This document shows positions 14,824-33,922 of a stretch of DNA of 64,000 nucleotides, piece by piece. Where the stretch lies: NCBI RefSeq assembly GCF_021699195.1, contig NZ_SSXE01000004.1, positions 1 through 64,000 of the forward strand, read 5' to 3'. The notes under the pieces are model-generated. The model did no database searches. It was not told where the DNA came from and saw only the letters and a program-made list of their open reading frames with translations. This stretch comes from Nonomuraea sp. MG754425. GTDB lineage: Bacteria > Actinomycetota > Actinomycetes > Streptosporangiales > Streptosporangiaceae. Position 1 is the first letter of the stretch; each line of letters opens with the position of its first letter. Made by a program: the position numbers and the translations under genes.

Positions 14824-15298
14824 GATGAATGCTCCTAGTGGTTCTTGGGGGATTACCTGAAAAGGGTTCGCGGGCATGCCCGAGGCCATGCGGGATCACC
14901 CGCACAGCGGGGACCTCGGACGTGCGAACCTGTGGAACTGACGTGATTCACCCGCGGGCGGAGGGATTACCGGCGGTCTTCGGACCGCGCTCCGCCGCAC
15001 TTACCGTGAAGATCGGACGGCTCTCGTTCGAGATCTTTCGAAAAGCGCCTTCGAGAAGGGATTTCTCTTCAGGAAGCGGCTTTGCGAATCCTCGAGAATC
15101 CTCGAGAGTCGGAACGCCGGTCGGCCCGGCTCCGATCGGCTCTCGCCCGCGGCGCTCTCGGGGCCGCTCCGGGCCACTACGGGGCCGGCGTCGACGCTGA
15201 GCCGTCATCGGCTCCGAACCGTCGATCGCGATCACCCGTCGCCCGTGGCGCGTTACCCGTCGCCCTGGTCGGCGCAAGCCGGCGTCCTGGGGCGGGGA
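14824..15298. other. Intergenic region upstream of the chaplin gene
   Basis: About 475 bp between two minus-strand genes, presumably holding the chaplin promoter and leader. It contains a 12-bp palindrome CGGGCATGCCCG (14871-14882), a cluster of TCGAGA-like motifs between 15030 and 15110, and a 10-bp tandem repeat (see separate entry). A 109-codon open frame on the minus strand (14948-15277) is very Arg/Pro-rich and looks like chance. Confidence 0.5.
15086..15105. repeat. Two-copy 10-bp tandem repeat
   Basis: GAATCCTCGA occurs twice head to tail and is followed by GAG, giving two CTCGAG hexamers ten bases apart. One helical turn of spacing suggests side-by-side protein binding upstream of the chaplin gene, but I cannot name a factor. 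Confidence 0.5.
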
Positions 15299-18253: not shown

Positions 18254-19321
18254 TCAGGCCAGGGTCCTGGCGAAGGTGGTGCGATTGGTCGACTCCCGCT
18301 CCACCAGCGTGGGTGCGATCAACTGCTTCAGCGGGCGGTCGCTCCGGCCTCCGGATATCTCCTCGAGCAGCAGGTCGACCGCGATGTCGCCGACTTCCTC
18401 TGCGGGCAGCCGGACAGTGGTCAGCGGTGGTGACAGGAACGCGGAGAAGGGGTAATCGCCGAAACCGATCACCATCATGTCGTCCGGCACCTTGAGCCCG
18501 TGCTCCTCCAGGGCGCGGTACAGGCCGAGCGCGAAGTAGTCGTTGCCGACCACGACCGCGTCCGGCAGCCTGGCGCGGCGCAACAGCCGGCGCGCCACCT
18601 GGTAGGCCTCCTGCGGCTGCCAGGGCAGGGCGGCCTGCTCCTGCCGGCGGGTGGGCACCCGCATGATGCTGCCGCGCGGCACGGACAGGCCGGCCTCGGC
18701 CATGGCCCGGCGGAAGCCGGCGATCCGGTCGGCGATGGTGGTGATCGGCAGGTCCTCCTCCAGCACCACGATCGAGCGGGCGCCACGGGAGATCGCGTGC
18801 GCGGTGGCACGGTAGCCGCCGAGCTCGTTGTCGGTGCCGACGGAGCGGTAACCCAGATCAGGCAGGTCCCGGTTGAGCAGCACGGTGGGCACACCGACCG
18901 TGCCGAGCCGCCGCCACGGATCGGAACTCGCCTGAACCGGGACGACTATCGATCCGCTCACCGAGGATCGCAGCAGCGACTCCACGGCGCGCGTCTCGTA
19001 CTCCTCCGATTCGCCGGTCACCGTCAGCAACAGTGAATAGCCGTGGTTCCGGGCGCGCAACTCAATGCTGGAGATCAGCTGCGCGTAGAACGGGTTGGAC
19101 GGGTTGGTGATGACCAAGCCGAAAGTCATCGCGGAGCCCAGGACAAGCGACCTGGCCACCGAATTCGGCACGTAGCCGACCCGCTCCGCCTCGGCGCGGA
19201 CCAGCGCCCTGGTCCTCTCGCCGATGCCGTCCTTTCCAGAGAGGGCACGCGAGACAGTGTTGACCGACAGGTTCAACGTCGCGGCGATGTCCCGCAAGGT
19301 ATGGCGCCGAGGCCCTGCCAT
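18254..19321 (-). CDS. LacI-family transcriptional regulator
   Basis: A 355-residue repressor-type regulator. Residues 5-50 carry the LacI HTH and hinge (TLRDIAATLNLSVNTVSRALSGKDGIGERTR and YVPNSVARSL), followed by a periplasmic-binding-protein-like sensor domain (GLVITNPSNPFYAQLISSIE, VVPVQASSDPW, GFGDYPFSAFLSPPLTTVRLP). The ATG at 19321 has AGGAG nine bases upstream. It is the 3'-most gene of a minus-strand trio with two unknown proteins, and two LacI-type palindromes lie in the divergent promoter region that separates the trio from the ABC transporter operon, so it most likely controls both. The ligand is unknown. Confidence 0.92.
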   Translation of the reverse strand: MAGPRRHTLRDIAATLNLSVNTVSRALSGKDGIGERTRALVRAEAERVGYVPNSVARSLVLGSAMTFGLVITNPSNPFYAQLISSIELRARNHGYSLLLTVTGESEEYETRAVESLLRSSVSGSIVVPVQASSDPWRRLGTVGVPTVLLNRDLPDLGYRSVGTDNELGGYRATAHAISRGARSIVVLEEDLPITTIADRIAGFRRAMAEAGLSVPRGSIMRVPTRRQEQAALPWQPQEAYQVARRLLRRARLPDAVVVGNDYFALGLYRALEEHGLKVPDDMMVIGFGDYPFSAFLSPPLTTVRLPAEEVGDIAVDLLLEEISGGRSDRPLKQLIAPTLVERESTNRTTFARTLA

Positions 19322-19370
19322 TCGAGTGCTCCTCTCTCGCTCGCTCCCGGTAACACCTTGTGGCCGCTCC

Positions 19371-19706
19371 TCAGCTCTTGACAGTGAGATAGATACGCAG
19401 TTTCGCTGACGGACTATTGCCCGCCACTGTGCCACGCAACCGCAGCCATTGGCCGAACTGGCCGACCGGCCAGGTCACCAGACCGGGGCCTGTGACGACA
19501 TGCTCGTGGCCGTCGAGGTCGCACCAGGTCAGGCCGTCCGGCGAGATCTGCGTGACCAGCCGTACCGCGAGGTCGTCGCCGGACGCCGCAAGGGTGTGCA
19601 CGAAGAAGCGCGCCTCGCCGGCCCACGCCACCTCGTACGGTTCCGTCGCGAAGTCGGAAACGAACGTCGTGTCCCGTTCGAGGACCGCCGTCTGCACCTG
19701 TCGCAT
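19371..19706 (-). CDS. Small beta-rich protein of unknown function, partner of the neighbouring 320-aa protein
   Basis: A 111-residue protein, predicted mostly beta from alternating hydrophobic residues (FFVHTLAASGDDLAVRLVTQISPDGLTWCDLDG, QFGQWLRLRGTV, KLRIYLTVK). No signal peptide. It lies four bases after the stop of the 320-residue gene and is presumably co-translated with it. I recognise no characterised family; it looks like a single sandwich domain that could bind a ligand or a partner. Confidence 0.75.
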   Translation of the reverse strand: MRQVQTAVLERDTTFVSDFATEPYEVAWAGEARFFVHTLAASGDDLAVRLVTQISPDGLTWCDLDGHEHVVTGPGLVTWPVGQFGQWLRLRGTVAGNSPSAKLRIYLTVKS

Positions 19707-19710
19707 AACG

Positions 19711-20673
19711 TCACCACTCCGTGGAAATGAGAACCGAATCGAGGAACAGGAAGTTGCGAACCGTCGAGTGGGTCCGCACTGAGAAGTAGAAGTTCAGCAG
19801 GTTCTCCAGCGAGTCGTAGCGCTCCTTGTACGGCGGGACCGGCACCGCGGACATGTCCATGATCCGATCGTTGACCTGCAGTTCGACGTTACGCCTGGCG
19901 GCGGTGTCGATGACCCAGCGCAGGTAGTGCCAGTTGACCTTCGTGGGCACCTCGTTGTAGCAGAGTTCCTGGGGCTCGCCGAACTGATGCCAGTCCTTCG
20001 GGTCGGGTGCGGTGAAGTCGGCCCCGTAGGCCAGCTTGACCTTGCCCTCAAGGTGCTCACGCGGCGTCGGTTCCGGCACGATCGGGTACACCCACTGCCG
20101 GGACAGCTTGTTGTCCAGCGTGGTGTTCAGGTAGCGGGCCACTGTGTGGTAGCGCAGACCGCCGTCGCCGCAGAGGTCGGTCGCCACGGTGAAGCAGCCG
20201 AACTGCGCCTCTGACGGGTGCAGGTTGCCGTCCCAGGTGACGTCTCCGAACTGGTCACCCGCGCTGCCGTCGATGGTCGCCTCGGCCTTGAAGGTGAAGT
20301 ATGCCTCGATCTGCAGCAGGCCGCGCCCGCTCATGGTGAGCCGCCGGATGGCGGTGGCGGTGTGCCCCTGGTAGGCCCGGGTGGCCAGCTTGAGCGCATA
20401 CGACCCGGTCATGGCGCCATGGGAACCGATATCGAAGAACGAGCAGTTCGAGAGCTGCGGCGGGCGGAAGTCACGCATGTGATCATCAACCGTGGAGAGA
20501 TCGCCATTGCCGTTGTAATTGCCCAGCAGCTCGGTCCAGCCGTGGGTGCCGGAGTTGAAGTCGTCGTAGGTCAGAATACGCCGAAGCGGCGAAAATTTCG
20601 ACAACCTCGGGTCTGCCGACAAAATGGCAGAGCGAATTTCGGCGGCCAGGTCGGGCCGCTCCATCGTGGTCAT
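19711..20673 (-). CDS. Uncharacterised protein, DUF6772-like
   Basis: A 320-residue cytoplasmic-looking protein without signal peptide or membrane segment. Motifs include ILTYDDFNSGTHGWTELLGNY, IGSHGAMTGSYALKLATRA, LLQIEAYFTFKAE, and VNWHYLRWVIDTAARRNVELQVNDRIMDM, a pattern that suggests a carbohydrate-binding-like jelly roll. I recall the DUF6772 family as similar but cannot confirm it. The ATG at 20673 has AGGAGC eight bases upstream. It is the first gene of the minus-strand trio and divergent from the ABC transporter; an operator lies about 95 bp before its start. Confidence 0.75.
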   Translation of the reverse strand: MTTMERPDLAAEIRSAILSADPRLSKFSPLRRILTYDDFNSGTHGWTELLGNYNGNGDLSTVDDHMRDFRPPQLSNCSFFDIGSHGAMTGSYALKLATRAYQGHTATAIRRLTMSGRGLLQIEAYFTFKAEATIDGSAGDQFGDVTWDGNLHPSEAQFGCFTVATDLCGDGGLRYHTVARYLNTTLDNKLSRQWVYPIVPEPTPREHLEGKVKLAYGADFTAPDPKDWHQFGEPQELCYNEVPTKVNWHYLRWVIDTAARRNVELQVNDRIMDMSAVPVPPYKERYDSLENLLNFYFSVRTHSTVRNFLFLDSVLISTEW

Positions 20674-20766
20674 GCCGAATGCTCCTGAAAAGGGTTTAGG
20701 CAATGCCGATTGGCGAATGTCTACGCCGGGCTGATCGACCGGAGTATGTCATACGATCGCAACCGG

Positions 20767-20782
20767 ACATTAACGTTAATGT
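20767..20782. promoter_or_regulatory. LacI-type operator 1 (perfect 16-bp palindrome)
   Basis: ACATTAACGTTAATGT is a perfect palindrome with the central CG typical of LacI-family operators, in an otherwise GC-rich region. It lies upstream of the minus-strand trio that encodes the LacI regulator. Confidence 0.8.
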
Positions 20783-20844
20783 TCAGCGACTGTCAACCCT
20801 CGGGTAGCTGCCACCGTCGGGCCCGGGCGTCCAGGCGCACCGTT

Positions 20845-20856
20845 ACGGCATGCCGT
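20845..20856. promoter_or_regulatory. 12-bp palindrome in the divergent promoter region
   Basis: ACGGCATGCCGT lies between the two LacI-type operators. Its sequence is unrelated to them, so it may bind a second regulator or be chance. Confidence 0.35.
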
Positions 20857-20959
20857 TTTCACTGGTCAGGCGCACTTGAGTGACACCGGCCCGGCAGGAG
20901 ATGTCGGCCAGACCCTTGACGATCAGGGCCCGCCAACCTAGCATCAGCCGGGCAATCGA

Positions 20960-20971
20960 ATTAACGTTAAT
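20960..20971. promoter_or_regulatory. LacI-type operator 2
   Basis: ATTAACGTTAAT is a perfect 12-bp palindrome sharing its core, and the right flank TAATGTTC, with operator 1. The two centres are about 191 bp apart. This copy is on the side of the ABC transporter operon, so the pair could repress both directions, perhaps through a DNA loop. Confidence 0.78.
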
Positions 20972-21187
20972 GTTCCAGGCAGTTAACACGTCGCTCCGTC
21001 AGCGGCCGACGGCTCACCTTCGCCTGCGGATCACCTCCAAGACCGGCCGGCTCGGATGCCGGCCCGTCTCAACCCCAATCCCCCAGAACCAAGCCGTCAC
21101 CGCCAGACGCTTACGGCGTCATGGCTCAACCTGGAGTTTCGTGTCGATGCTGAAACGGGCTGCCGACCGACAGCGATCGGACCGGCC

Positions 21188-22111
21188 ATGACCGCGTATC
21201 TCTTCCGCCGCACGCTGTTCGCCGTCTTCGTGTTGTGGGGCGCCGTAACCGTTGTGTTCCTGGTGCTCCGATTGGTTCCCGGCGATCCGGCCCAGCTCAT
21301 TCTCGGCTCCGATGCCACCCAGGATGAGATCGCGCGGCTGCGCGAACAGATGGGCCTGAACCGCCCGCTGGTGGTGCAGTACGGGATCTATCTCGGCGAT
21401 GTGGTCCGGTTTGATTTCGGCGATTCCTACCGCTACCACAGTGACGCCATGGGCCTGGTGATGGGCAGGTTCCCGCTCACCCTTCAGCTCGCCGTCGTGG
21501 CGATGGCCATCGGCCTGGTGCTCGGGATCTCACTCGGCGTGGTCGGCGCGCTGCGGGTGAACCGTCTGGCCGACCGCGTGGTCTCGGTGTTCGCGCTGCT
21601 CTCGCAGTCCATGCCGTCGTTCTGGATCGGGATCATGTTCATCCTGGTGTTCGCCAGGCAACTGCACTGGCTGGCCAGTGGAGGCCACGGTGGATTCGAC
21701 CGGCTGGTCCTGCCGGGGATCACCCTCGCCCTGCCGCTGATCGCGATCCTGATCCGGCTGACCCGTAGCGGCCTGCTCGACGTCGTGCATGAGAACTACA
21801 TCCAGACCGCGCGGGCCAAGGGCCTGTCCGAGCGGTTGGTCATCTTCCTGCACGCCATCCGCAACGCGCTCATCCCGATCGTGACGGTGGCCGGTCTCGA
21901 GTTCGGCAAGCTGCTCGGCGGCGCGGTCATCGTCGAGACGGTCTTCTCCTGGCCCGGCGTCGGGCGGCTGCTCATCGACTCCATCTCGGCCCGTGACTAC
22001 AACGTGGTGCAGGCCGCGATCCTGCTGATCGCCTGCGGTTTCGTCCTGATCAACCTGGTCGTGGACGTCCTGTACGGCTACCTCGACCCGCGCATTCGGC
22101 TGGGACGGTGA
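21188..22111 (+). CDS. ABC transporter permease, DppB/OppB type
   Basis: A 307-residue inner-membrane permease. It starts MTAYLFRRTLFAVFVLWGAVTVVFLVLRLVPGDPA, the standard DppB opening, has about six membrane segments, and carries the EAA-loop signature RTARAKGLSERLVIFLHAIRNALIPIV. First gene of the plus-strand convoy. The ATG at 21188 is chosen by comparison with the family's usual N-terminus; its ribosome site is weak. Forms the channel with the next gene product. Confidence 0.92.
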   Translation: MTAYLFRRTLFAVFVLWGAVTVVFLVLRLVPGDPAQLILGSDATQDEIARLREQMGLNRPLVVQYGIYLGDVVRFDFGDSYRYHSDAMGLVMGRFPLTLQLAVVAMAIGLVLGISLGVVGALRVNRLADRVVSVFALLSQSMPSFWIGIMFILVFARQLHWLASGGHGGFDRLVLPGITLALPLIAILIRLTRSGLLDVVHENYIQTARAKGLSERLVIFLHAIRNALIPIVTVAGLEFGKLLGGAVIVETVFSWPGVGRLLIDSISARDYNVVQAAILLIACGFVLINLVVDVLYGYLDPRIRLGR

Positions 22112-23043
22112 CCATGGACAGGCCAACTGAGCAAGTGCTGCCACGGAACGACAGCAAAGCGGCCGACAGCCCAACGCCCGGCGACCCCCCAGTGGCAGCC
22201 AGGACACGGGTCAAGATCGGGCGGCTGCGCATCATCGCCTCGTTGTCGGTGATCGCCCTTTACGTGGTCGCCGCGGTGATCGGGCCGATCCTGCTGAAGT
22301 ACGACCCGGTCGCCACCGACCTCGGCTCCCGGCTGAAGCCGCCCGGCACCTTGTTGCCGAGCGGGCACACCGCCATCTTCGGCACCGACCAGGTCGGTCA
22401 GGACGTGCTCGCCCAGATGCTGCAGGGCGCGCGGGTGTCGATAACGGTCGGTTTGGCGACCCTGGTGCTGGCCGGCGTCATCGGCGTCGCCGCCGGCATC
22501 GCCGCCGGGTACTTCGGCGGCTGGCTGGACACGGTGCTCATGCGGCTGGCGGACGTCCAGCTCACCTTCCCATCGATCCTGCTGGCCATCTTCATCGCGT
22601 CGATCCTCGGGCCCAGCGTGGTGAACGTCGTCATCGTCCTTTCCATCTCCAACTGGGTGACGTTCGCCCGGGTCACCCGCAGCCAGGTGCTCGGGCTCAA
22701 GAACCGGGACTTCGTCGACGCCACCCGTACCCTCGGCGCACGGACCTGGCACCTGATGACCCGCAGCATCCTGCCGTCCATGATCGCGCCGATCCTGGTG
22801 GTCGCGACCGTGGAGCTGGGGCACGTGATCCTGGCCGAGGCGTCCTTGAGCTTCCTCGGCCTCGGCACCCCGGCCAGCACGCCGAGTTGGGGCACGACCA
22901 TCGCCAACGGCCGGGACTACCTGTCCAACGCGTGGTGGATCTCCACGATCCCCGGCATCGGCCTGGCCATCCTGGTGATCGGCTTCGGCGTGCTGGGTGA
23001 CGCGCTGCGCGACCGGTTCGATCCGCGGCTGAGGAGCATGTGA
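22108..23043 (+). CDS. ABC transporter permease, DppC/OppC type
   Basis: A 311-residue permease with a hydrophilic proline-rich N-terminus, five or six membrane segments, the DppC-type GTDQVGQDVLAQMLQGARVSITVG motif and an EAA loop (ATRTLGARTWHLMTRSILPSM). Its GTG overlaps the preceding stop by four bases, indicating coupling; an in-frame ATG six bases later is an alternative. Second subunit of the importer channel. Confidence 0.92.
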   Translation: MTMDRPTEQVLPRNDSKAADSPTPGDPPVAARTRVKIGRLRIIASLSVIALYVVAAVIGPILLKYDPVATDLGSRLKPPGTLLPSGHTAIFGTDQVGQDVLAQMLQGARVSITVGLATLVLAGVIGVAAGIAAGYFGGWLDTVLMRLADVQLTFPSILLAIFIASILGPSVVNVVIVLSISNWVTFARVTRSQVLGLKNRDFVDATRTLGARTWHLMTRSILPSMIAPILVVATVELGHVILAEASLSFLGLGTPASTPSWGTTIANGRDYLSNAWWISTIPGIGLAILVIGFGVLGDALRDRFDPRLRSM

Positions 23044-24047
23044 TGGACGACCCACTGTTGTCGGTGCAGGACCTGACGGTACGGTTCCGCACCCGGGCGG
23101 GGACCGTCACCGCCGTCGATCGGGTGAGCTTCGACCTGGCCGAAGGGGAGACCCTGGCCATACTGGGCGAGACCGGCAGTGGCAAGAGCGTCACCGCCCA
23201 GGCCCTGATGGGGCTGCTTCCGCGACCGGCGGGACAGGTGGCCGGCGGCCGGATCGTCTATGACGGCACGGATCTGCTGGCCCGCCCGCGGTCTGACACC
23301 CGCCGGCTCAACGGGACCGACCTGGCCATGGTGTTCCAGGACCCGCTCAGCTCCCTCAACCCGGTGTTCCGGGTCGGCGCGCAAATCGGCGAATTGTTCC
23401 GGCGCCGTCGTGGCGCCTCCCGTTCCGAGGCGCGACGTAAGGCGATCGAGCTGATGGACCGGGTGGGTATCCCGGCGGCCGCGCGCAGGGTCGACGACTA
23501 TCCCCACCAGTTCTCCGGCGGCATGCGGCAGCGAGTGATGATCGCAATGGCGATCGCCCTTCAGCCCCGTGTGCTCATCGCCGACGAACCCACCACCGCC
23601 CTGGATGTCACGGTCCAGGCACAGGTCATGGCGTTGCTCGCCGAACTCAAGGCGGAACACCGCATGGCGATGATCCTCATCAGCCACGACCTCGGCGTGG
23701 TGGCCGGCGTCGCCGACCGGGTCATGCTCATGTATGCCGGCCGGGTGGTGGAGACCGGCGGGCTACGCGAGGTCTACGAAACGACCGGGCATCCGTACAC
23801 GCGCGGCCTGATGGCCTCGATCCCGGCGCTGGACGGCCCGCGCGAACGGCTGGTGCCCATCAAGGGTTCGCCGCCGGACCTCATGCGGCTGCTCGCGAGT
23901 TGCCCGTTCCAGCCCCGGTGCGAGTTCGCCACCGACATCTGCGGCACCGAGCGGCCGGAGCTCATGCCGGTACCCGCCCGGCCCGAGTCGCATCGCGCCG
24001 CCTGCCACCATGCGAAGGAGGTCGCCACCGATGTCGTCCCCGGCTGA
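23043..24047 (+). CDS. Peptide-type ABC transporter ATPase, DppD
   Basis: A 334-residue ATPase. Walker A GETGSGKS, Q-loop VFQDPLSSLNP, signature FSGGMRQR, Walker B VLIADEPTTALD and switch histidine ISHDLGV are intact, and the C-terminal oligopeptide/dipeptide-transporter extension contains four Cys (CPFQPRC..CG and the final C) that in relatives bind an Fe-S cluster. GAGGAG lies six bases before the ATG, which overlaps the previous stop by one base. Powers uptake together with the next ATPase. Confidence 0.93.
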   Translation: MDDPLLSVQDLTVRFRTRAGTVTAVDRVSFDLAEGETLAILGETGSGKSVTAQALMGLLPRPAGQVAGGRIVYDGTDLLARPRSDTRRLNGTDLAMVFQDPLSSLNPVFRVGAQIGELFRRRRGASRSEARRKAIELMDRVGIPAAARRVDDYPHQFSGGMRQRVMIAMAIALQPRVLIADEPTTALDVTVQAQVMALLAELKAEHRMAMILISHDLGVVAGVADRVMLMYAGRVVETGGLREVYETTGHPYTRGLMASIPALDGPRERLVPIKGSPPDLMRLLASCPFQPRCEFATDICGTERPELMPVPARPESHRAACHHAKEVATDVVPG

Positions 24048-25044
24048 CCCGCTGCTGTCGGTAAGAGACCTGCACACCAGCTTCCCGATCCGCTCCGCCC
24101 TGCTGCGGCGCAAGGCGGGCGCCGTCCAGGCCGTCTCGGGCGTCTCGTTCGACCTGCCCGCGGGCCGGACGCTGGGCCTGGTCGGCGAGTCGGGCTCGGG
24201 CAAGACGACGCTGGCGCGAACCGTCATCGGCCTGGCACCGCCAGAGTCCGGCCAAGTGCGCTTCGACGGCCAGGACCTGCTGACCCTGCCGGGCGCCGAC
24301 CTGCGGCAGGCGCGCCGGCAGATCCAGATGGTCTTCCAGGATCCGTACGCGTCGCTGAATCCCCGGCTCACCGTCGAACAGATCATCAGCGAGGCCTGGC
24401 TCATCAACCCCGGTGTGGTGCCCCGCGACCGGTGGGCCACCGAGGTGAGGGACCTGTTGGCCAGGGTCGGGCTGAACCCGGATCATGCCGACCGGTACCC
24501 GCACCAGTTCTCCGGCGGACAGCGCCAGCGCGTCGGCATCGCCCGGGCCCTGGCGCTCCGGCCGCGGCTGGTGATCTGCGACGAGGCGGTGTCGGCACTG
24601 GACGTCTCGGTGCAGGCGCAGGTCCTGAACCTGCTCGCCGACCTGCAGGCGGAACTGGGCCTCAGCTTCCTGTTCATCGCCCACGACCTGTCCGTGGTGC
24701 GGCACATCAGTGACGAGGTGGCGGTGATGTACCTCGGGAAGGTCGTGGAGATGGGGACGACGGAGCAGATATTCACCGCGCCGGTGCACCCGTACACGCA
24801 GGCGTTGTTGTCCGCGGTGCCGGTGCCCCGCCCCTGGGCCTCGCCACAACGGCGGCAGATCATCCTCGCCGGCGACATTCCGTCGCCCATGTCGCCGCCG
24901 TCCGGCTGCCGGTTCCGTACCCGGTGCTGGAAGGCACAGGATCGGTGCGCCACGGAGGAGCCTGCGCTCGCCGATCGGCTGGGCGATCACTCTTCCGCAT
25001 GTCACTTCCCCGAGTTGCCGGCCACTCCGGCAGGTTCGAAATGA
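24031..25044 (+). CDS. Peptide-type ABC transporter ATPase, DppF
   Basis: A 337-residue ATPase with Walker A GESGSGKT, Q-loop VFQDPYASLNP, signature FSGGQRQR, Walker B LVICDEAVSALD and switch HDLSV, plus the C-terminal extension with CRFRTRC. AAGGAGG nine bases upstream fixes the ATG; the gene overlaps the previous one by 17 bp. It heterodimerises with the DppD-type protein to energise the importer. Confidence 0.93.
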   Translation: MSSPADPLLSVRDLHTSFPIRSALLRRKAGAVQAVSGVSFDLPAGRTLGLVGESGSGKTTLARTVIGLAPPESGQVRFDGQDLLTLPGADLRQARRQIQMVFQDPYASLNPRLTVEQIISEAWLINPGVVPRDRWATEVRDLLARVGLNPDHADRYPHQFSGGQRQRVGIARALALRPRLVICDEAVSALDVSVQAQVLNLLADLQAELGLSFLFIAHDLSVVRHISDEVAVMYLGKVVEMGTTEQIFTAPVHPYTQALLSAVPVPRPWASPQRRQIILAGDIPSPMSPPSGCRFRTRCWKAQDRCATEEPALADRLGDHSSACHFPELPATPAGSK

Positions 25045-25691
25045 GCGGCCGGACCCGCCTGGTTCTCGTCCGCCACGGCGAATCGGTGTGGAACGTCGAG
25101 GAGCGCTACCAGGGACAGGCCGACTCAGGGCTCACCGCCGCCGGTCTCGAGCAGGCCGAGGTGGCCGCGGCCGAGCTCCTGGCCCGCTTCGGAACGCCCG
25201 ATCTGGTCGTCTCGAGCGATCTGCCGCGGGCCAGGGATACGGCGAACGCGTACCTGCGCCACCTTGACCTCGATGCCAGGCTGGATGCCCGGTTGCGCGA
25301 GGCCGACATCGGCACCTGGGTCGGCCGGACCTTCACCGAGATCGCCGAGGAGCACCCGGATGATCTCGCGGCGGTCGGTCGCGGGGTCGATGTGCGGCGC
25401 GGCGGGGGCGAGACGTTCGCCGAGATGCGCCAGCGGGTATGGGCGGCGCTCGTCGATGCCGGGAACATGGCGGCCGGCGGCGCGACCGTCGTCGTGTTCA
25501 CCCACGGTGGCCCGATCCGGGTGGCCGCCGCCGCCGCGCTGCGCCTGCCGACGCCCGGTCACCTCAGCTTCGCCCCGCCGGTGAACGCCTCGTTGACGGT
25601 CATCAGCCACGCGGGAGGACAGCAGAACAACTCGGTGGTCGAGTACAACTCGCCGACCGCACGGGCCGCGGACGCCGCGCGCACCGACTGA
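25041..25691 (+). CDS. Histidine phosphatase (phosphoglycerate-mutase-like)
   Basis: A 216-residue enzyme of the histidine phosphatase superfamily. The catalytic LVRHGES motif is at residues 8-14, with further conserved R (DLPRARDTANAY), E (LREADIGTW) and the second His in FTHGGPIR. Its ATG overlaps the transporter ATPase stop (ATGA). No signal peptide, so it acts in the cytoplasm, probably removing a phosphate from an imported compound or its breakdown product (inference from operon context). It could equally be a broad phosphatase of the CobC/YhfR kind. Confidence 0.85.
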   Translation: MSGRTRLVLVRHGESVWNVEERYQGQADSGLTAAGLEQAEVAAAELLARFGTPDLVVSSDLPRARDTANAYLRHLDLDARLDARLREADIGTWVGRTFTEIAEEHPDDLAAVGRGVDVRRGGGETFAEMRQRVWAALVDAGNMAAGGATVVVFTHGGPIRVAAAAALRLPTPGHLSFAPPVNASLTVISHAGGQQNNSVVEYNSPTARAADAARTD

Positions 25692-25706
25692 ATCGAGAGG
25701 ACCAGC

Positions 25707-26531
25707 ATGCTGACCGGATCCTTCACTTTCGTGGTGATGACCTACAACCTGTGGGGTGACTGGCATCTGGAGCAGCGAGAGCCGGCGATCCGTGACCTGT
25801 TCTCCACCCGGCCACCCGATCTCCTGGCGACCCAGGAACTTCGTCCTCGCTCGCGTGCGGTGGTGGACGAGGCACTGCCCGGACACGCACGGGTGCACGA
25901 CGACTTCCCCGGATGGGGAGCGCAGAGCAATCTGTGGTGGCGGCGGGAACTGTTCGATCTCGTGGAGTACGGGACACGAGACGTCGGCATCCTCGATGCC
26001 AACGCAAGGTTGTTCTGGGTGCGGCTGCAGCCCAGGGCCGGCGACGCACGGCCGCTGGTGTTCTCCACCGCACACCTGACGTGGCCGGGCCACGCACAGG
26101 AGCGGGCGGATGGCCGCAATCTGCGAACCGGACAGGCGGAGCGGGTGGTCACGGCGCTGGATGAAATCGCCGGCGATGCGGCCTGCCTGTTCACGGTGGA
26201 CATCAACGACATCGGGCAGCCGTTGTGGGCGCTCGGCAACGGCGGCTTTCTCGATTCGTTCACCGCGTTGGGACGCACGTCGCCGGTCACCCACCCCGTG
26301 GAGCCGCTGCCGTTCGTCGCCGACCGCGGAACGCGCCTCTCTCCGCTGGGGTCCCCGTCCAAGGCCATCGACTGGATCTTCTCCCGAGGCCCGATCGCCA
26401 CCCGGGCCAGCGAGGTCGTCGAGTTCTTCTCGGCAGGGAACGCCCCGTCGGACCACAAGCCCGTCGCGGCGACCTTCACCCTGCCGTCGGCCGCGGCATC
26501 AGCTAAAACCAATCAAGGAGAGAGGCAATGA
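25707..26531 (+). CDS. Endonuclease/exonuclease/phosphatase-family hydrolase
   Basis: A 274-residue EEP-fold protein. It shows the opening MTYNLWGDWH, the metal-binding Glu in LLATQELRPR, FSTAHLTWPGH, a D-I-N-D in place of the usual G-D-x-N, and the terminal S-D-H-K-P-V-A-A-T motif with the catalytic His. Members hydrolyse phosphodiesters or phosphomonoesters such as DNA, inositol phosphates or sphingomyelin. No signal peptide is visible, suggesting cytoplasmic action. GAGAGG precedes the ATG by seven bases; it overlaps the binding-protein gene by four. Confidence 0.85.
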   Translation: MLTGSFTFVVMTYNLWGDWHLEQREPAIRDLFSTRPPDLLATQELRPRSRAVVDEALPGHARVHDDFPGWGAQSNLWWRRELFDLVEYGTRDVGILDANARLFWVRLQPRAGDARPLVFSTAHLTWPGHAQERADGRNLRTGQAERVVTALDEIAGDAACLFTVDINDIGQPLWALGNGGFLDSFTALGRTSPVTHPVEPLPFVADRGTRLSPLGSPSKAIDWIFSRGPIATRASEVVEFFSAGNAPSDHKPVAATFTLPSAAASAKTNQGERQ

Positions 26532-28039
26532 TCGCACGATCCCGGGCCATAGGCGGCCTCGCCGCAGTCGCCCTTGTGATGGGCCTCGCGGCCTGCGGCG
26601 GCTCCGCCGGCTCGGCCGGCTCCGATGCCGAGGGCCAGGTGCTGCGCTACGCGCCACAGTTGTTCCCCGTATCGCTTGATGTCCAGCAGTTCCCTGCGGA
26701 AGAGGCCGTCCAGACCACCGTCCAGCAGGGGCTTGAGACGCTCACTGTCATGAAGGACGGCCAGGCGGCCCCGAAGCTGGCCACGTCATGGGAGAGCACC
26801 GACGAGAAGACGTGGGTGTTCCACCTCCGCGACGGGGTGACCTTCAGCGATGGGAGCGCTTTTACCGCCAAGGACGTCAAGGGGTCCGTGGAGCGGCTGA
26901 AGAGCCTCAAGGGGGCGCTGGACCCGTTGCTCGCCTCCGTCACCGGCATTGACGCCACCGACGACCACACGGTGACGTTCCACACCTCGGCGCCGCTGGG
27001 CACCCTGCCCAGCACCCTGTCCCTGGTGTTCATCGGCCAGGGCGACAAGGTCACCAGCGATACGTACTGGCAGAAGCCGATCGGCACCGGACCGTTCAAG
27101 TTCGACTCGTTCAGCCCCGACGACAGAGTGGTGCTCAGCCGCAACGACAAATACTGGGGCACCAAGGCCAAGGTGGCGAAGCTCGAGGTCCTCAACATGC
27201 CGGAGATCTCGGCCCGGATCACCGCGCTGAACAACGACGAGGTGGACGTGCTCGCGTCGATCCCGCCGGACCAGGTGGCCGAGGTGTCCGGCGTGGATGG
27301 AATCAAGTACGGGGTCGGCCCGAGCTTCAACTACTACTTCATCTGGTTCAACCAGAACAACAAGCCGTTCGACAATGTCAAGGTACGCCAGGCCATGTTG
27401 CATGCGATCGACATCAAGAGCGTCGTCGGCAACCTGTTCGGAGACCTCGGTACAGCGGCCCAGTCGCCGGTCACCCAGGCGGTCTTCGGATCGACCCGGC
27501 TGGAGCCGTACTCCTACGACCCGGCTCTGGCAAAGCAACTGCTCACCGAGGCCGGATATCCCAACGGCATCGACACCACGATCCAGTGGCCGCTGGCAGG
27601 TGGGCCGAACATCAAGGCCATGGCGCAGGCGTTCATCTCGTCCTGGGAAAAGGTCGGCATCAAGGTGCAGCCGCAGGAGAAGGAGCGGGCGACCTGGCTC
27701 AAGGACTTCGGCGCGCTGAACTGGGACATGAACCTGCAGACCAACACCACCGGCACCGGCGACGCCGACTTCACTCTGAACCGGCTGTACACCTGTGCAG
27801 CGAAGCGGATGGGCTACTGCAACAAGGATCTGGACTCGATCCTGGCCAAGGCGCGCGGGTCGCTGGACCAGAACGAGCGCAAGACGCTGTACGCGCAGGC
27901 CGACAAGATCATCTGGGATGACGCGGTCGGCATCTTCCCGGTGGATCTGAAGAACAACTACGCCGTCCGTGACAACGTCAAGGGATTGGAGATGCCGGTC
28001 AACGGGCGGCCGGACTTCTCGCAAGTGTCCGTCGGATAG
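26528..28039 (+). CDS. Substrate-binding lipoprotein of the peptide-type ABC transporter
   Basis: A 503-residue family-5 solute-binding protein. A lipobox (GLAAC, Cys23) ends the signal peptide; the mature part has SBP_bac_5 motifs such as ATSWESTDEKTWVFHLRDGVTFSDG, PIGTGPFKFDSF and VRQAMLHAIDIK. It would capture the ligand at the outer face of the membrane and deliver it to the permeases. The family takes up oligopeptides but also nickel, opines, plant sugars and other compounds, so the ligand cannot be read from the family alone. The start overlaps the previous gene by four bases with GGAG upstream. Confidence 0.92.
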   Translation: MIARSRAIGGLAAVALVMGLAACGGSAGSAGSDAEGQVLRYAPQLFPVSLDVQQFPAEEAVQTTVQQGLETLTVMKDGQAAPKLATSWESTDEKTWVFHLRDGVTFSDGSAFTAKDVKGSVERLKSLKGALDPLLASVTGIDATDDHTVTFHTSAPLGTLPSTLSLVFIGQGDKVTSDTYWQKPIGTGPFKFDSFSPDDRVVLSRNDKYWGTKAKVAKLEVLNMPEISARITALNNDEVDVLASIPPDQVAEVSGVDGIKYGVGPSFNYYFIWFNQNNKPFDNVKVRQAMLHAIDIKSVVGNLFGDLGTAAQSPVTQAVFGSTRLEPYSYDPALAKQLLTEAGYPNGIDTTIQWPLAGGPNIKAMAQAFISSWEKVGIKVQPQEKERATWLKDFGALNWDMNLQTNTTGTGDADFTLNRLYTCAAKRMGYCNKDLDSILAKARGSLDQNERKTLYAQADKIIWDDAVGIFPVDLKNNYAVRDNVKGLEMPVNGRPDFSQVSVG

Positions 28040-28088
28040 CTGCTGGAGCCGTTCATCCAACCCCCCTTTTTTTGCAGGAGACACTCCA

Positions 28089-29291
28089 TTGCCTCGAATC
28101 CGTTCCCTCCGCTCTGTCGTACTTGTCGGTCTTGCCGCCTTGGCCACCTTGTATGGGACCCCCACTGCTCAGGCCGCCCTCACGGAGCCCGCCCGCAGCG
28201 CCTGCCGTAACGCCACCGAGGTACCGGTCGAGACCGGCGCCACCTTCAACGACCCTGTCGCCGGCGCCCCGACCGCGGTCGTGGAACGGATCTGCTCGCT
28301 GATCAAGCAGGCCCCGGCCGGGTCGTCGATCGAGATCGCCGAGTTCGTCGTCTCAGGCGATGCCGGCGCCGATTACGCGGCGGTGCTGCTCGACGCGTAC
28401 CACCGTGGCGTCCGGATACGCATGGTCATGGACGGCTATCAGATCGACAACCCGGCTGCCGAGGGGCTGATCCGCACCCTCGGCACCGACAAGTCGACCC
28501 CCTCATGGGTGCACGTTTGCAGCCACATGAGCCCGGAAGGGAACACCACCTCCTGCCAGGGCACCAAGGGCATGCACAACAAGTTCTCGCTCTACTCGGA
28601 GACCGGCGGTCAGCACGACGTCGTCGTACAGGCCTCGAACAACATCACCGACGTCAACTCCACCAGCTACTGGAACAACCTGGTCGTGCTGCCCGGCAAC
28701 CGTAAGCTCTTCGAGGGATACGGAAAGTACTTCGACGACCTCGCCGCCGAGGTGCAGAACCCCGACTACGACACCACCGTCACCACCGGCATGCGGGGTG
28801 GCCAGGTCACCGCCCAGTTCTATCCGGTCGCCGACCGAGACCCGATCGCTCGGCGACTCAGCCAGGTCGGCTGCAAGACCGAGGGCCGCACCCGGGTCGA
28901 GATCGGCCAATCCGAGTGGGACGCCACCCGCCTCGCGATCGTCGACGAGCTCGCGGCGCTGGTGGCCGCGGGATGCCAGGTACGCGTCGTGCACGGTCTG
29001 GCTGACAACGCGGTCACCGCCGCGCTGGACGCCGGCGGCGTGCAGCGGCGGGTGCTCGACGGCTCGACCCCGGCCGGCCGCATCCACTCCAAGTACATCG
29101 TGGTCACCGACCCAACCGGCCGCGGTTCCGGACAGGGCTGGGTGATGACCGGCAGTCACAACTTCAACGCCACCTCGCTGCTACGCAACGACGAGGCGAT
29201 GGTCGAACTCTCCGAGCACGGCATCGTCGAGGCGTACGGCGTCAACTTCGCACGGCTGTGGGAAGTCGGCGCGGTCGCGGGAAAGCAGTAG
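28089..29291 (+). CDS. Secreted phospholipase-D-like enzyme
   Basis: A 400-residue exported protein with a Sec signal peptide (to about residue 29, TAQA/ALTE) and two PLD half-sites: H163-N-K165 (GMHNKFSLYSETG, then VVVQASNN) and H333-S-K335 (RIHSKYIVVTD, then TGSHNFN). This makes a pseudo-dimeric PLD catalytic centre that cleaves phosphodiesters, in phospholipids or nucleic acids. The start is a TTG with AGGAG eight bases upstream; no ATG/GTG gives the signal peptide. Last gene of the convoy, 49 bp after the binding protein. Likely releases the ligand outside the cell (inference). Confidence 0.88.
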   Translation: MPRIRSLRSVVLVGLAALATLYGTPTAQAALTEPARSACRNATEVPVETGATFNDPVAGAPTAVVERICSLIKQAPAGSSIEIAEFVVSGDAGADYAAVLLDAYHRGVRIRMVMDGYQIDNPAAEGLIRTLGTDKSTPSWVHVCSHMSPEGNTTSCQGTKGMHNKFSLYSETGGQHDVVVQASNNITDVNSTSYWNNLVVLPGNRKLFEGYGKYFDDLAAEVQNPDYDTTVTTGMRGGQVTAQFYPVADRDPIARRLSQVGCKTEGRTRVEIGQSEWDATRLAIVDELAALVAAGCQVRVVHGLADNAVTAALDAGGVQRRVLDGSTPAGRIHSKYIVVTDPTGRGSGQGWVMTGSHNFNATSLLRNDEAMVELSEHGIVEAYGVNFARLWEVGAVAGKQ

Positions 29292-29693
29292 AGAACGGGG
29301 ATGACCAACGGCACCGGCGCGATCCGAGCCGCCGTCGAGCGGCCGGTCCATCCGCAGTGAGCGGCGCTCGGTTGGCTGGGCGGCGCATGGTTGACCGTCG
29401 AACTGGGCGAACGCGCGGCCGAGCATCGGTTGTGCATGGAGGTGACCGGCCGGGCGTCCACCACACCCTCACCGCACGGCCTGGCCGCGCTGGCGTGGGT
29501 CGCACCAGCCACCGACATCACCATGCCGGCCGGGACGATCGACATCGTGGCCGAGACCCGGCCGCTTCCGCCCTGGCACACCGCCATGTCCGCGGACACG
29601 GCATGGACCGCGGACGGCATTCCTGAAAGCCTCACCGGAGCGCTCTCCCCGCGCAGTAGCTTTGGTTCCGCGACAGAAAAAAGGGGGGATTCC
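29292..29693. other. About 400 bp without an assigned gene, possibly a gene remnant
   Basis: A plus-strand frame from 29391 is open and joins the oxygenase gene in phase. Its translation (for example LAALAWVAPATDITMPAGTIDIVAE) looks coding-like but matches nothing I know and has no ribosome site. It may be a remnant of an older gene, or an N-terminal extension of the oxygenase. A good ribosome site appears only at 29681. Confidence 0.4.
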
Positions 29694-32012
29694 GTGCCCG
29701 GCATGGCCCGTGAGCAACTGGCCGGATTGCTCAATGCGTCGGCGGAGCCGGCCGCGTCCAGCGTCTATCGGAAGCTTCCCAAGGCCGATCTGTCGGTGGT
29801 GGTCGATGGGGTCGGTCCGCTGCGGTTCCCCGTCTCCGACGAGCAGGCTTCCCAGCTTCAAGAGCTCGGCCGCCGGGCGCGGTTCGGGCGGGGTGAGCAG
29901 ACGCTGACCGACCCGGAAGTGCGCGACACCTGGGAGATTCCCAAGGAGCTGGTGCGCGTCGAGTGGACGGAGGCGTTCGCAGCCGTCCTCGACGGGATGC
30001 GCGCGGAGCTGGGGTTGCCGCCGCACTGCGAGCTCACACCGGAGCTGCACTCCATGCTCCTGTACGAGACCGGGCAGTTCTTCGTCGCCCACCAGGACTC
30101 CGAGAAGGACGACGCCATGGTCGCGACCTTGGTGGTGACGCTGCCGTCCGCGCACACCGGCGGCGAGTTCGTCGTCGAGCATCAGGGCCAGGCCAAGAAG
30201 TACCGGGGGCTGAAGACCGCGGTCTCGCTGGTCGCCTTCTACGCCGACTGCCGGCACCAGGTTCTTCCCGTGAAGAAGGGCAACCGCGTCACCCTTACCT
30301 ACAACCTGCTCCTGACGGGCGACAGCCAGGCTGTGGCGGCCGAGCATCCGCTGGTCAGTGATCTCGCGGCCTGCCTCCACACGCACTTCACCACCCCGGT
30401 CGTCCTCCCGTACAGCAATCGCAGGGGCGCTCCGCCGGCGCGGCTGGCGTACCTCCTCGACCACGAGTACACCGCCCGCGGGCTGAGCTGGTCCCGGTTG
30501 AAGGGCTCCGACGCCGCGCGGGCCGCCCTGCTGCGGGCCGCGGCGGAGCGGGCGGGTTGCGAGATCACGCTGGCCCTCGCGGAGATCCAGGAGACCTGGG
30601 ACGCCTACGACCCCGACGAGGACGAGGACGCGTGGTACGGCGACGATGAGGACGAGGGCCCCGACGATCACGAGGACTCGGGCAGCGCGGACGACAGGCA
30701 GTACGTCCTTCAGGATCTGATCGAGACCTGCACCACGCTCGCCCACTGGATCGGCCCGGAAACAGGGCGACTCGAGGACATCTCGCTGGACCTCAGCGAC
30801 GCCGAGGTGGCCTCGACAACCCCGACGGCCGATATGACGCCCTACTCCTCCGAGTACGAGGGTTACATGGGCAACTACGGCAACACCCTGGACCGCTGGT
30901 ACCGGCGAGCGGCGCTGGTCATCTGGCCCCGGGGCCAGGGCTTCGCCAGCCGGGCCGAGGCGTCTCCGGGTTGGGCGCTGGACGAGCTCACCGTGATGGC
31001 CCGCGCCGGTGAGAGCGCGCAGGCCCGTGAGGCGGCGCGGTCGCTGGAGTCCTTCTGGCACGCCGCAGGCCATTACGCCGACCAGACCGAACTTCTCCGT
31101 AAGGCGCTGGAAGCAGCCAGGGAGCTGGATGACGCGCAGATCGCCGCCATGCTGCTGCGGCCGTTCGCGTTGGAGCGGCTGGTTCCCGGACACGGCCCGG
31201 CCTTCGGCGGCCTGGCGGCGCACTACGGCGGCACCTGGATCGACGATCTGCTGCGCGGCTGGTCCGAGGGCTGGCGGCCCGGCTCCTACGGCCTCGCCCA
31301 GGCACCGCTGGAATGGCTCGAGAATCTCCCACGGCTGTGTGCCGCACTCTCGGTGGAGGAGGACCCGTCCGTCACGGCCGCCCGCCGCATCGTCGATCTG
31401 TCGTGGACGATGTTCGCGGGCCAGGTCGGTCCAGCGCTCGACGGGCCCCTCACCTCCCGGCAGAAAGCATGGCTGACCTCCTTGGGGGCGCCATGCTCCG
31501 GGATCATCGCGGCCGCGGCCCAACTGGGGTCGACTCGGGTACTGGAGGACGCTCACAAGCTCGCGCGGACGGACGGCGAGCGGGCGCACGTACTGGCGAT
31601 GGCCACGTTGCGCGCCGCCGGGGCGCGCGAAACGGGCTTCGACGAGCTGGCCGTCAACTGTGCCGAACGGATCCGGGCATTACTGGCGCAGCCACAACGC
31701 GCGCCGGGCGACTGGTCGATCGAGCTGCCCACCGGATGCGCGTGCGAGCTGTGCGAAGTGCTCGGCACGTTCCTCCGGCATCCTGAACGGCGTGCTCTCG
31801 ACTGGCCGCTCGCAAAGGACAAGCGCCGGCATGTCCACGCCCGAATAGACGACGCGGAGCTGCCCGTCCGGCACGAGACCAGACGGCAGGGCCGCCCGTA
31901 CACCCTGGTGCTGGCCAAGACAGAAACCCTCTTCGAACGTGAGCGTCTCGCCCGCGAGCGTCACGAATCGGACCTGGCTTGGCTCACCGACAACTGGAAA
32001 GTCTTCAACTGA
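29694..32012 (+). CDS. Large 2OG-Fe(II) oxygenase-domain protein
   Basis: A 772-residue protein. Residues about 85-205 form a prolyl-4-hydroxylase-type 2-oxoglutarate/Fe(II) oxygenase: the iron triad H133-Q-D135 and H188 is visible (FFVAHQDSEKDD and ADCRHQV), with R198 placed to bind 2-oxoglutarate. The rest (about 210-772) is a long helical region of unknown function with an acidic patch (DPDEDEDAWYGDDEDEG) near residue 300 and an ACELCEVLGTFL segment near the end. It probably hydroxylates a protein or small molecule in the cytoplasm. The GTG at 29694 follows AAGGGGGG; an ATG nine bases later is possible. A strong terminator follows, so it is likely monocistronic. Confidence 0.8.
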   Translation: MPGMAREQLAGLLNASAEPAASSVYRKLPKADLSVVVDGVGPLRFPVSDEQASQLQELGRRARFGRGEQTLTDPEVRDTWEIPKELVRVEWTEAFAAVLDGMRAELGLPPHCELTPELHSMLLYETGQFFVAHQDSEKDDAMVATLVVTLPSAHTGGEFVVEHQGQAKKYRGLKTAVSLVAFYADCRHQVLPVKKGNRVTLTYNLLLTGDSQAVAAEHPLVSDLAACLHTHFTTPVVLPYSNRRGAPPARLAYLLDHEYTARGLSWSRLKGSDAARAALLRAAAERAGCEITLALAEIQETWDAYDPDEDEDAWYGDDEDEGPDDHEDSGSADDRQYVLQDLIETCTTLAHWIGPETGRLEDISLDLSDAEVASTTPTADMTPYSSEYEGYMGNYGNTLDRWYRRAALVIWPRGQGFASRAEASPGWALDELTVMARAGESAQAREAARSLESFWHAAGHYADQTELLRKALEAARELDDAQIAAMLLRPFALERLVPGHGPAFGGLAAHYGGTWIDDLLRGWSEGWRPGSYGLAQAPLEWLENLPRLCAALSVEEDPSVTAARRIVDLSWTMFAGQVGPALDGPLTSRQKAWLTSLGAPCSGIIAAAAQLGSTRVLEDAHKLARTDGERAHVLAMATLRAAGARETGFDELAVNCAERIRALLAQPQRAPGDWSIELPTGCACELCEVLGTFLRHPERRALDWPLAKDKRRHVHARIDDAELPVRHETRRQGRPYTLVLAKTETLFERERLARERHESDLAWLTDNWKVFN

Positions 32013-32067: not shown

Positions 32068-32370
32068 GTTTTGACGAGTGGCAGGTCAGCCGCAGTCCGA
32101 CGTTCGCGTAGATCTCGGCCTTCCGGATCGGGTCGGCGTTCGAGAGAACTCGCACCATGTCTCCGAGTCTGTGTGTGATCTCCGCCGGCTCATCACACCC
32201 AACCACGGTGCTGGGCGAGCGTGCGCTCACACTCGGCGATCTGGCGGCGTGCACATGGCGAGTGCTTGGGCCTCGGGCGGTGTCACGTCCTGTGCGGCCG
32301 TCAGGACGTCGAGGGTCTGGTCGACGTTGTGGGGCGCGACAGCCGACACCGAGCCAACGGTCCAGTCCGC
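32040..32370 (-). pseudogene. Decayed serine recombinase tail, relic 2
   Basis: Minus-strand recombinase sequence scattered over frames: LDRWLG with APHNVDQTLDVLTAAQ (about 32310-32370), QIAECERTLAQHR (about 32210-32250), and MVRVLSNADPIRKAEIYANVGLRLT (about 32085-32160). Only the C-terminal 100 or so residues remain and they are frameshifted. The sequence differs from relic 1, so it derives from a separate recombinase. It separates the oxygenase gene from the arsenic operon. Confidence 0.8.
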
Positions 32371-32401
32371 CCGCATTCCGAGCAGGCATTGACACCTGTC
32401 A

Positions 32402-32437
32402 ATATAGACATGTATCTATTTCGATGAACGTCTATAT
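32402..32437. promoter_or_regulatory. ArsR-type operator
   Basis: ATATAGAC (32402-32409) and GTCTATAT (32430-32437) are exact inverted repeats 20 bases apart in an AT-rich patch, right before the arsR ribosome site. This is the position and AT-rich, dyadic character of ArsR/SmtB-family binding sites. Confidence 0.75.
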
Positions 32438-32450
32438 GAGGGGGCTGTGG

Positions 32451-32831
32451 ATGGAACTGCTGGAGATCCTGGAGTGCAGCCCGCCGCTGACCCGCGAGCC
32501 GCTGGACGCCGAGCAGGCAGCCGGGGTGGCACGGGTGTTCAAGGCGCTGGGCGATCCGGTGCGACTGCGCATTCTGTCGATCGTGGCCAGCCGCGCCGGC
32601 GGCGAGGTGTGCGTGTGCGACATCAACGACGCCTTCGAGCTGTCCCAGCCGACCATCAGCCACCACCTGAAGGTGCTCAAGGAGGTCGGGCTGCTGACCT
32701 CCGAACGGCGCGCGTCCTGGATGTACTACCGGCTGGCGCCCGAGACGCTGGGTGAGTTGTCGGCGCTGCTCACCCTGCCCGCCAGCCTTCCAGCCAGTGG
32801 ACCGGCCGCTGCAGCGGCGGTGCCGCGGTGA
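32451..32831 (+). CDS. arsR: ArsR-family arsenite-responsive repressor
   Basis: A 126-residue winged-helix regulator. The core ARVFKALGDPVRLRILSIV, CVCDINDAFELSQPTISHHLKVLKEVGLL and the wing ERRASWMYYRL are complete. The C-V-C pair in the DNA-recognition helix region is the classic As(III)-sensing site. GAGGGGG about six bases before the ATG at 32451 decides this start; ATGs at 32424 and 32436 lie inside the operator. First gene of the operon, overlapping the transporter by four bases. Confidence 0.92.
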   Translation: MELLEILECSPPLTREPLDAEQAAGVARVFKALGDPVRLRILSIVASRAGGEVCVCDINDAFELSQPTISHHLKVLKEVGLLTSERRASWMYYRLAPETLGELSALLTLPASLPASGPAAAAAVPR

Positions 32832-33922
32832 TTGGGGCTCAACCCGCGCAGGTCACCGCGCCACCGGCCAGCGTGATCGGCGCGCTGTCGGTGCTGGATC
32901 GGTTCCTGCCGGTGTGGATCATCGCGGCCATGGGCGTGGGGCTGCTGCTCGGCCGGCTGGTGCCCGGCCTGGATGCCGCGCTGGATGCGGTCAAGGTCGG
33001 TGAGATCTCGCTGCCGATCGCGCTCGGCCTGCTGCTGATGATGTACCCGGTGCTGGCCAAGGTCCGCTACGACCGCCTCGGCACCGTCACGGGCGATCGC
33101 CGTCTGCTGATCTCCTCGCTGGTGCTCAACTGGGTGCTCGGCCCGGCGCTGATGTTCGCCCTGGCCTGGATCCTCCTGCCCGACCTGCCCGAATACCGCA
33201 CCGGCCTGATCATCGTCGGCCTCGCCCGATGCATCGCCATGGTCCTCATCTGGAACGATCTGGCCTGCGGCGACCGCGAGGCCGCCGCCGTCCTGGTGGC
33301 GCTCAACTCCGTCTTCCAGGTGGTCGCGTTCGGCGCGCTGGGCTGGTTCTACCTCCAGGTGCTGCCCGGTTGGCTCGGCCTGTCACAGGCCGCACTGGAG
33401 GTCTCAGCCTGGGACATCGCCCAGTACGTGCTCATCTTCCTCGGCATCCCGCTGGCCGCCGGCTACCTCTCCCGCCAACTCGGCGAACGCGCCCGCGGCC
33501 GTGACTGGTACGAGCAGCGCTTCCTGCCGCGCGTCGGCCCGATCGCCCTGTACGGACTGCTGTTCACCATCGTCATCCTGTTCGCCCTGCAAGGCCACAC
33601 CATCACCTCCCAGCCCGGCGACGTGGCCCGCATCGCGCTGCCGCTGCTGGCGTACTTCGCCCTCATGTGGGGCGGCGCCTTTCTGACCGGCAAGGCGATC
33701 GGCCTGCCCTACGACAAGACCACGACGCTCGCCTTCACCGCCGCCGGCAACAACTTCGAGCTGGCCATCGCGGTCGCGGTCGGCGTCTTCGGCGTCACCT
33801 CCGGCCAAGCCCTGGCCGGCGTGGTCGGCCCGCTCATCGAGGTCCCCGTCCTGGTCGCCCTGGTCTACGTCAGCCTGGCCGGCCGCCGCCTGTTCACCGC
33901 CGAGGAGCCCACCCGTGCCTGA
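32828..33922 (+). CDS. acr3: ACR3-type arsenite efflux transporter
   Basis: A 364-residue membrane protein with ten predicted membrane segments. ACR3 signatures are visible: GLLLMMYPVLAKVRYD, LVLNWVLGPALMFALAW, the Cys in GLARCIAMVLIWNDLACGD that is essential in characterised ACR3 proteins, and FTAAGNNFELAIAVAVGVFG. It expels As(III) using the proton-motive force. Its GTG overlaps the arsR stop (GTGA), showing translational coupling. Confidence 0.94.
   Translation: MIGAQPAQVTAPPASVIGALSVLDRFLPVWIIAAMGVGLLLGRLVPGLDAALDAVKVGEISLPIALGLLLMMYPVLAKVRYDRLGTVTGDRRLLISSLVLNWVLGPALMFALAWILLPDLPEYRTGLIIVGLARCIAMVLIWNDLACGDREAAAVLVALNSVFQVVAFGALGWFYLQVLPGWLGLSQAALEVSAWDIAQYVLIFLGIPLAAGYLSRQLGERARGRDWYEQRFLPRVGPIALYGLLFTIVILFALQGHTITSQPGDVARIALPLLAYFALMWGGAFLTGKAIGLPYDKTTTLAFTAAGNNFELAIAVAVGVFGVTSGQALAGVVGPLIEVPVLVALVYVSLAGRRLFTAEEPTRA

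Follow-up and report, generated by a model that had tools for sequence, protein, structure and literature searches.

The window analysed here, a 64,000-nucleotide stretch of Nonomuraea sp. MG754425 (contig NZ_SSXE01000004.1, positions 1 to 64,000), carries between positions 18254 and 29291 a divergent gene cluster that probably serves LacI-controlled scavenging. Its target would be a phosphate-esterified sugar or similar compound, with a phosphodiester as the most likely form. This reading, derived from sequence comparison, is based on an operator-like pair, a substrate-binding protein (SBP) without Asp408 of DppA, conserved phosphoesterases, an exported enzyme that is swapped between loci and the sugar-related company kept by two DUF families. 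The members named in a preliminary description of the cluster, comprising a LacI regulator, two unknown proteins, an importer, a histidine phosphatase (HisP), an EEP phosphoesterase and an exported PLD-like enzyme, were all placed within this interval by profile matches, the two unknown proteins being DUF6772 and a DUF6385-like partner:

18254..19321, minus strand: LacI-family repressor (PF00356, 35.4 bits; PF13377; start of about 19321 picked by eye)
19371..19706, minus strand: DUF6385-like protein of 111 aa, the constant partner of DUF6772
19711..20673, minus strand: DUF6772 protein (PF20562, 421.9 bits; start about 20673)
20767..20782, no strand: operator-like palindrome O1, ACATTAACGTTAATGT, putative site
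20958..20973, no strand: operator-like palindrome O2, GAATTAACGTTAATGT, putative site
21188..22111, plus strand: DppB-type permease (Opp/Dpp permease family; revised start 21188)
22108..23043, plus strand: DppC-type permease (Opp/Dpp permease family)
23040..24047, plus strand: DppD-type ATPase with oligo_HPY
24010..25044, plus strand: DppF-type ATPase with oligo_HPY
25041..25691, plus strand: HisP (PF00300, 163.5 bits; revised start 25041)
25707..26531, plus strand: EEP-family phosphoesterase (PF03372, 31.5 bits vs cut-off 24.5)
26528..28039, plus strand: class C substrate-binding lipoprotein, the SBP (SBP_bac_5, 309.8 bits)
28089..29291, plus strand: exported PLD-like protein (PLDc_2, 73.5 bits vs cut-off 27; start approximate)

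The listed starts of several open reading frames were too long, and those of DppB, HisP, LacI, DUF6772 and PLD are given here at their likelier positions. HisP, at its likely start, begins within the last bases of DppF, and the SBP gene likewise begins before EEP has ended, an operon-like arrangement. Visual inspection of the sequence shows a lipobox on the SBP and a signal peptide on the PLD; neither was seen on EEP or HisP in the same way.

An EEP alignment run once against genome contigs yielded 24 loci, five of which, besides the window, combine importer, HisP, EEP and SBP: Nonomuraea PA05 (L017), a Micromonosporaceae metagenome-assembled genome (L018), two Kribbella (L019, L020) and Jiangella muralis (L027). 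The gene order of the window is preserved in L018–L020, the HisP-EEP-SBP block of L027 lies on the opposite side of LacI, and L017 is devoid of the DUF pair; a second PA05 locus, which shares the operator core, has DUF6772, DUF6385 and LacI on one side and an MFS gene transcribed in the opposite direction. Identities between the window and the Kribbella and Jiangella-type loci ranged from 46% (HisP) up to 79% (DUF6772). As the same set recurs in other genera, it is not a chance grouping, and the objection that it might be conserved in no other genome falls away. We further defined a set of 40 loci by a LacI at at least 51% together with a Dpp importer. Importer, LacI and at least one phosphoesterase are present in 40/40, and importer, cytosolic EEP and HisP are co-conserved as one set in 14 (window included). 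Thirty-six of the 40 were found via DUF6772 alone and hence were not selected by a phosphoesterase; the remaining four, L017–L020, came via EEP. At a threshold of at least 40% identity, none of the four enzymes of the phosphoesterase set was present in six distant Dpp-type loci or in 12 MFS and other rows. EEP was detected in 1/200 family genomes and 4/396 phylum genomes: the window genome stood alone among the matches listed for the 200-genome search, EEP loci are also present in G636, G648 and PA05 of the larger family set of 341 genomes (PA05 being apparently G655, of the same genus as the window, as judged from equal coordinates), and a plasmid search gave no EEP match. The EEP loci L030–L040 (24–51% over parts) were left out of the by-eye annotation.

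Comparison of these loci shows a predicted exported phosphodiesterase-type enzyme that is repeatedly linked to the importer and swapped between PLD and a secreted EEP. The PLD occurs in 4/14 EEP-bearing loci (window, L017, L132 and L134, the last being 94–99% identical to the window) and was not found near nine others; the remaining locus, L018, is cut off by the end of its contig 505 bases beyond the SBP match. Of the 26 sister loci without cytosolic EEP, 11 have a PLD gene closing the importer operon, whereas 15 have a secreted EEP, with signal peptides called by eye; the two never occur together (0 of 26). The gene for the secreted EEP shares four bases with the start of DUF6772 in L122 and L126. 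The possibility that PLD is a mere neighbour was thus rejected in part on the strength of the 11 sister loci. Its inclusion in the set by the preliminary description stands as regards this recurring link, but with only 4/14 EEP-bearing loci holding it, PLD is linked yet replaceable. On a DUF6772 tree, from which L017 is absent, PLD with EEP, PLD alone and secreted EEP each need one change, so the swaps correspond to about three events and not to 29 independent ones. Importer-free PLD relatives exist as well (G122, G005, G064 C7 and C178 of the window's own genome; at 33–38%, G115, G110, G091 and G052), whereas two Kribbella and one Jiangella genome (G596, G597, G598; the genome of L010 was left out) gave no PLD at E 1e-20. 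Two HxK motifs were found in 8/8 PLDs printed; the Asp at the usual HxKxxxxD spacing is absent from both window motifs and, among these eight, is found only in the second motif of L127. The PLD gave no match at 0.1 against PDB sequences. A possible secreted nuclease, encoded next to HisP in Jiangella, was rejected: Pfam gives lamin-tail domains only, and its one NCBIfam match, ExeM-GG, reaches 30.1 bits vs a cut-off of 1300.

LacI very likely controls both divergent directions and little else in the window genome, as judged from a predicted operator pair that is unique in the genome and recurs in relatives; local regulation of the divergent genes, as originally proposed, is supported accordingly. 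O1 matches 16/16 and O2 14/16 letters of the palindrome, and they are the sole sites at ≤2 mismatches across the 11.3 Mb genome, where a reversed control motif gave zero sites at the same tolerance. The 12-letter core was found twice in the window at ≤2 mismatches vs 0.04 expected. In the corresponding region of the window, L017–L020, L027 and L010 the best match reached 10–12 of 12 letters (7/7 regions), each with a further site of at least 9/12. A 10- or 11-letter match precedes the first gene in 18/20 sister operons, the other two contigs ending there; 500 random sequences of 760 bases gave a maximum of nine letters, in eight cases. Both hallmarks of a LacI-family regulator with a local operator, the helix-turn-helix and a palindrome with central CG at the target promoters, are present.

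The company kept by the two DUF proteins points to sugar use. The DUF6385-like window protein reaches 22.4 bits with PF19912, below the 26.8 cut-off, and 13/14 relatives match this profile at E ≤ 0.01 (best 1.1e-8). DUF6772 was detected in 35/341 family genomes and 16/394 class genomes, three being common to both, and an earlier search found it in 1/296 phylum genomes; the DUF6772 fragments of G618 were left unmapped. It adjoins a DUF6385-like gene in 49/49 mapped rows (L065/L159 and L010/L141 counted twice), and both genes are present in 8/8 later loci. From a plasmid collection, five of seven DUF6772 matches were fetched (H5 and H6 were left out): an MR/MLE gene accompanies DUF6772 on 4/4 fetched alphaproteobacterial plasmids, on three of which an SDR gene and two CUT1 permease genes also adjoin it; on the fourth, SDR-like and CUT1 genes lie close by but in the opposite orientation. 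The one MR/MLE protein scanned was closest to arabinonate and galactonate dehydratases, under their cut-offs. In other actinobacteria, DUF6772 occurs with BNR, DHDPS-family, nucleoside hydrolase, arabinofuranosidase-like or aldonolactone-oxidase genes, or with an MFS transporter whose type is metabolite/H+ symporter (389.4 bits vs cut-off 443). Overall, in loci without a Dpp importer the DUF pair is found with MFS or sugar-type ABC genes, often near sugar-acid or glycosidase-like enzymes. An AlphaFold model of DUF6772 (5-row alignment, 76–90% identity) gave no fold (pLDDT 32.0), PDB searches with the profile (best E 1.3) and the single sequence returned nothing significant, and no paper was found by the names DUF6772 and DUF6385 in the literature collection searched. 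We tentatively propose, as a possibility short of an even chance, that actinobacteria and alphaproteobacteria share a hitherto undescribed module for sugar use, built around DUF6772 and DUF6385, that docks with different importers and linkage-breaking enzymes, the window being a dedicated sugar-phosphodiester branch and DUF6772 a new sugar-acting enzyme. In such a module phosphate linkages might be opened by PLD, by a secreted EEP or by HisP together with cytosolic EEP, and glycosidic ones by BNR or other glycosidase-like enzymes.

Two further observations concern distant DUF6772-DUF6385 loci (31–33% identity). L154–L157, L166 and L167 carry the order DppB-DppC-SBP-DppD-DppF, and L154 and L157 have a sialidase-like gene just upstream of DUF6772, with a BNR domain by Pfam in L154.

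The cytosolic enzymes retain their characteristic residues. HisP displays the PF00300 profile, the RHG motif and the second His motif, and its RHGES and THGG motifs are kept in 14/14 loci; EEP passes the PF03372 cut-off and contains the metal and catalytic residues of the superfamily. TDP2, a DNA-end phosphodiesterase, tops the Foldseek list for EEP, and nucleases are found in both the EEP and PLD superfamilies. These observations would fit nucleic-acid scavenging, in which the nuclease would be PLD or the secreted EEP, nucleotides or short oligomers would enter through the importer, and EEP and HisP would yield nucleosides; the nucleoside hydrolase gene in one DUF6772 locus (L158) and a weak ExeM/NucH match of the secreted EEP (29.3 bits vs cut-off 300) point the same way. 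We consider this unlikely, though it is the best placed of the alternatives: the best EEP identity among the structural matches listed is to a mannosyl-6-phosphatase (23%), and the company of the DUF pair outside Dpp-importer loci consists of sugar-type importers and sugar-acid enzymes. That phosphatase, Bacteroides Bt3783 (PDB 4c1r), counts among the closest known systems, and it raises the slightly less probable option that a sugar phosphate monoester or phosphorylated oligosaccharide is imported, EEP being a Bt3783-like sugar phosphatase with no diester involved. This would leave the exported PLD, or its exchange for a secreted EEP, unexplained and would render two consecutive phosphatases redundant.

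Nine distant EEP relatives were examined (L008, L021–L026, L028 and L029). Four of them adjoin an ABC importer, which is of CUT1 type in L008, L021 and L025, and this sugar-type company favours the main reading. In L021 (4065-14089, Phytoactinopolyspora) an EEP relative lies with a second EEP, an SIS isomerase and CUT1 importer genes, and in L028 (9989-14421, Pseudactinotalea) the neighbours of another are an HAD hydrolase and a PhnD-type importer made up of SBP, ATPase and permease, a candidate for another phosphoester uptake set.

The importer parts most resemble Opp/Dpp and nickel-type families, and the SBP matches DppA, NikA-like, AgaA and AccA structures in the PDB. In DppA, Asp408 and Arg355 anchor the peptide ends. 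Asp408 aligns with Gly409 of the window SBP, gap-free up to the common GDxD, and Arg355 falls in an alignment gap, so that the DppA pair is not found in the window SBP; at the Asp408 column, 0/10 aligned SBPs have Asp (8 Gly, 2 Thr). The concern that the binding protein might be specific for ordinary peptides is thus not borne out by its sequence. Although the family likeness would favour it, an ordinary peptide importer with unrelated phosphoesterase neighbours is very improbable in view of the missing anchors, a gene set kept across genera and a regulator of the sugar-sensing type with local operators.

For scavenging of a phosphodiester-linked sugar, we propose that PLD would trim the phosphate-linked compound outside the cell and SBP-DppBCDF would import the product, from which EEP and then HisP would free phosphate inside. 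DUF6772 and DUF6385 may bind or act on the released sugar, and the sugar or its phosphate would take LacI off. Cleavage would be confined to the cell interior in the Kribbella and Jiangella relatives, and would take place outside wherever PLD or a secreted EEP occurs and cytosolic EEP is missing. Several points weigh against this proposal. Apart from the DUF pair, the window set has no sugar-catabolic gene; TDP2 is among the proteins structurally closest to EEP; no neighbouring sugar importer was found for 5/9 distant EEP relatives (L022, L023, L024, L026 and L029), two of which sit on contigs of 3–4 kb; the second operator site is weak in Kribbella and Jiangella, where its 9/12 letters are reached by 8/500 random sequences; and the enzyme swaps reduce to few events, each arrangement being a single group on the DUF6772 tree. 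Taken together, the predicted regulon, the co-conserved importer, EEP and HisP, the SBP without the DppA anchor, the sugar company of the DUF pair and the recurring link of an exported phosphodiesterase-type enzyme to the importer partly support the phosphodiester-linked sugar first suggested; the PLD assigned to it proved replaceable.

A described system with the same logic, not named in the preliminary description, is the agrocinopine acc system of Agrobacterium (AccR, AccA, AccBCDE, AccF, AccG). It combines a class C binding protein and ABC importer with a cytosolic phosphodiesterase and a phosphatase, under a repressor whose signal is a sugar phosphate (PMC4526662). The same text gives Trp in AccA at the position of DppA Asp408 and describes the contacts of AccA to pyranose-2-phosphate (PMC4526662). 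The window likewise has a class C (peptide-type) SBP with an ABC importer, and AccA structures are among the PDB matches of its SBP. It differs in the use of EEP and histidine phosphatase, assigned by family match, in the addition of DUF6772, DUF6385 and an exported PLD, and in that no Ti-plasmid or opine context was seen at the window. We take AccF and AccG to belong to other enzyme families, and on our best reading the window would work like agrocinopine uptake with different enzymes. In Xanthomonas, xanthosan, a sugar phosphodiester, is imported by the transporter XanT and cleaved by the phosphodiesterase XanP as food; LacI, a Dpp importer, EEP, HisP and PLD are not named in the abstract and section that describe the two (PMC12807533). 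DppABCDF shares the permeases, ATPases and SBP fold family with the window but differs in its peptide anchors. A literature search limited to titles and the beginnings of abstracts found no paper on this gene set.

Outside the cluster, the gene directly downstream of PLD (29391-32012, plus strand) encodes a large 2OG-Fe(II) oxygenase-domain protein and is followed by consecutive genes for an ArsR-family regulator, an SBF-family transporter and an LMWPc-family phosphatase (32157-34331, plus strand), a row that resembles an arsenic-resistance operon. On the other side, a 738-aa protein with eight chaplin repeats (ChpA-C, PF03777) is encoded at 12673-14889 on the minus strand.

Described cases of bacterial feeding on sugar phosphodiesters are few, with xanthosan and the agrocinopines among them. 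If true, a conserved system of this kind under local regulation in soil actinomycetes would widen this food class and would offer a handle on two families of unknown function, DUF6772 and DUF6385.
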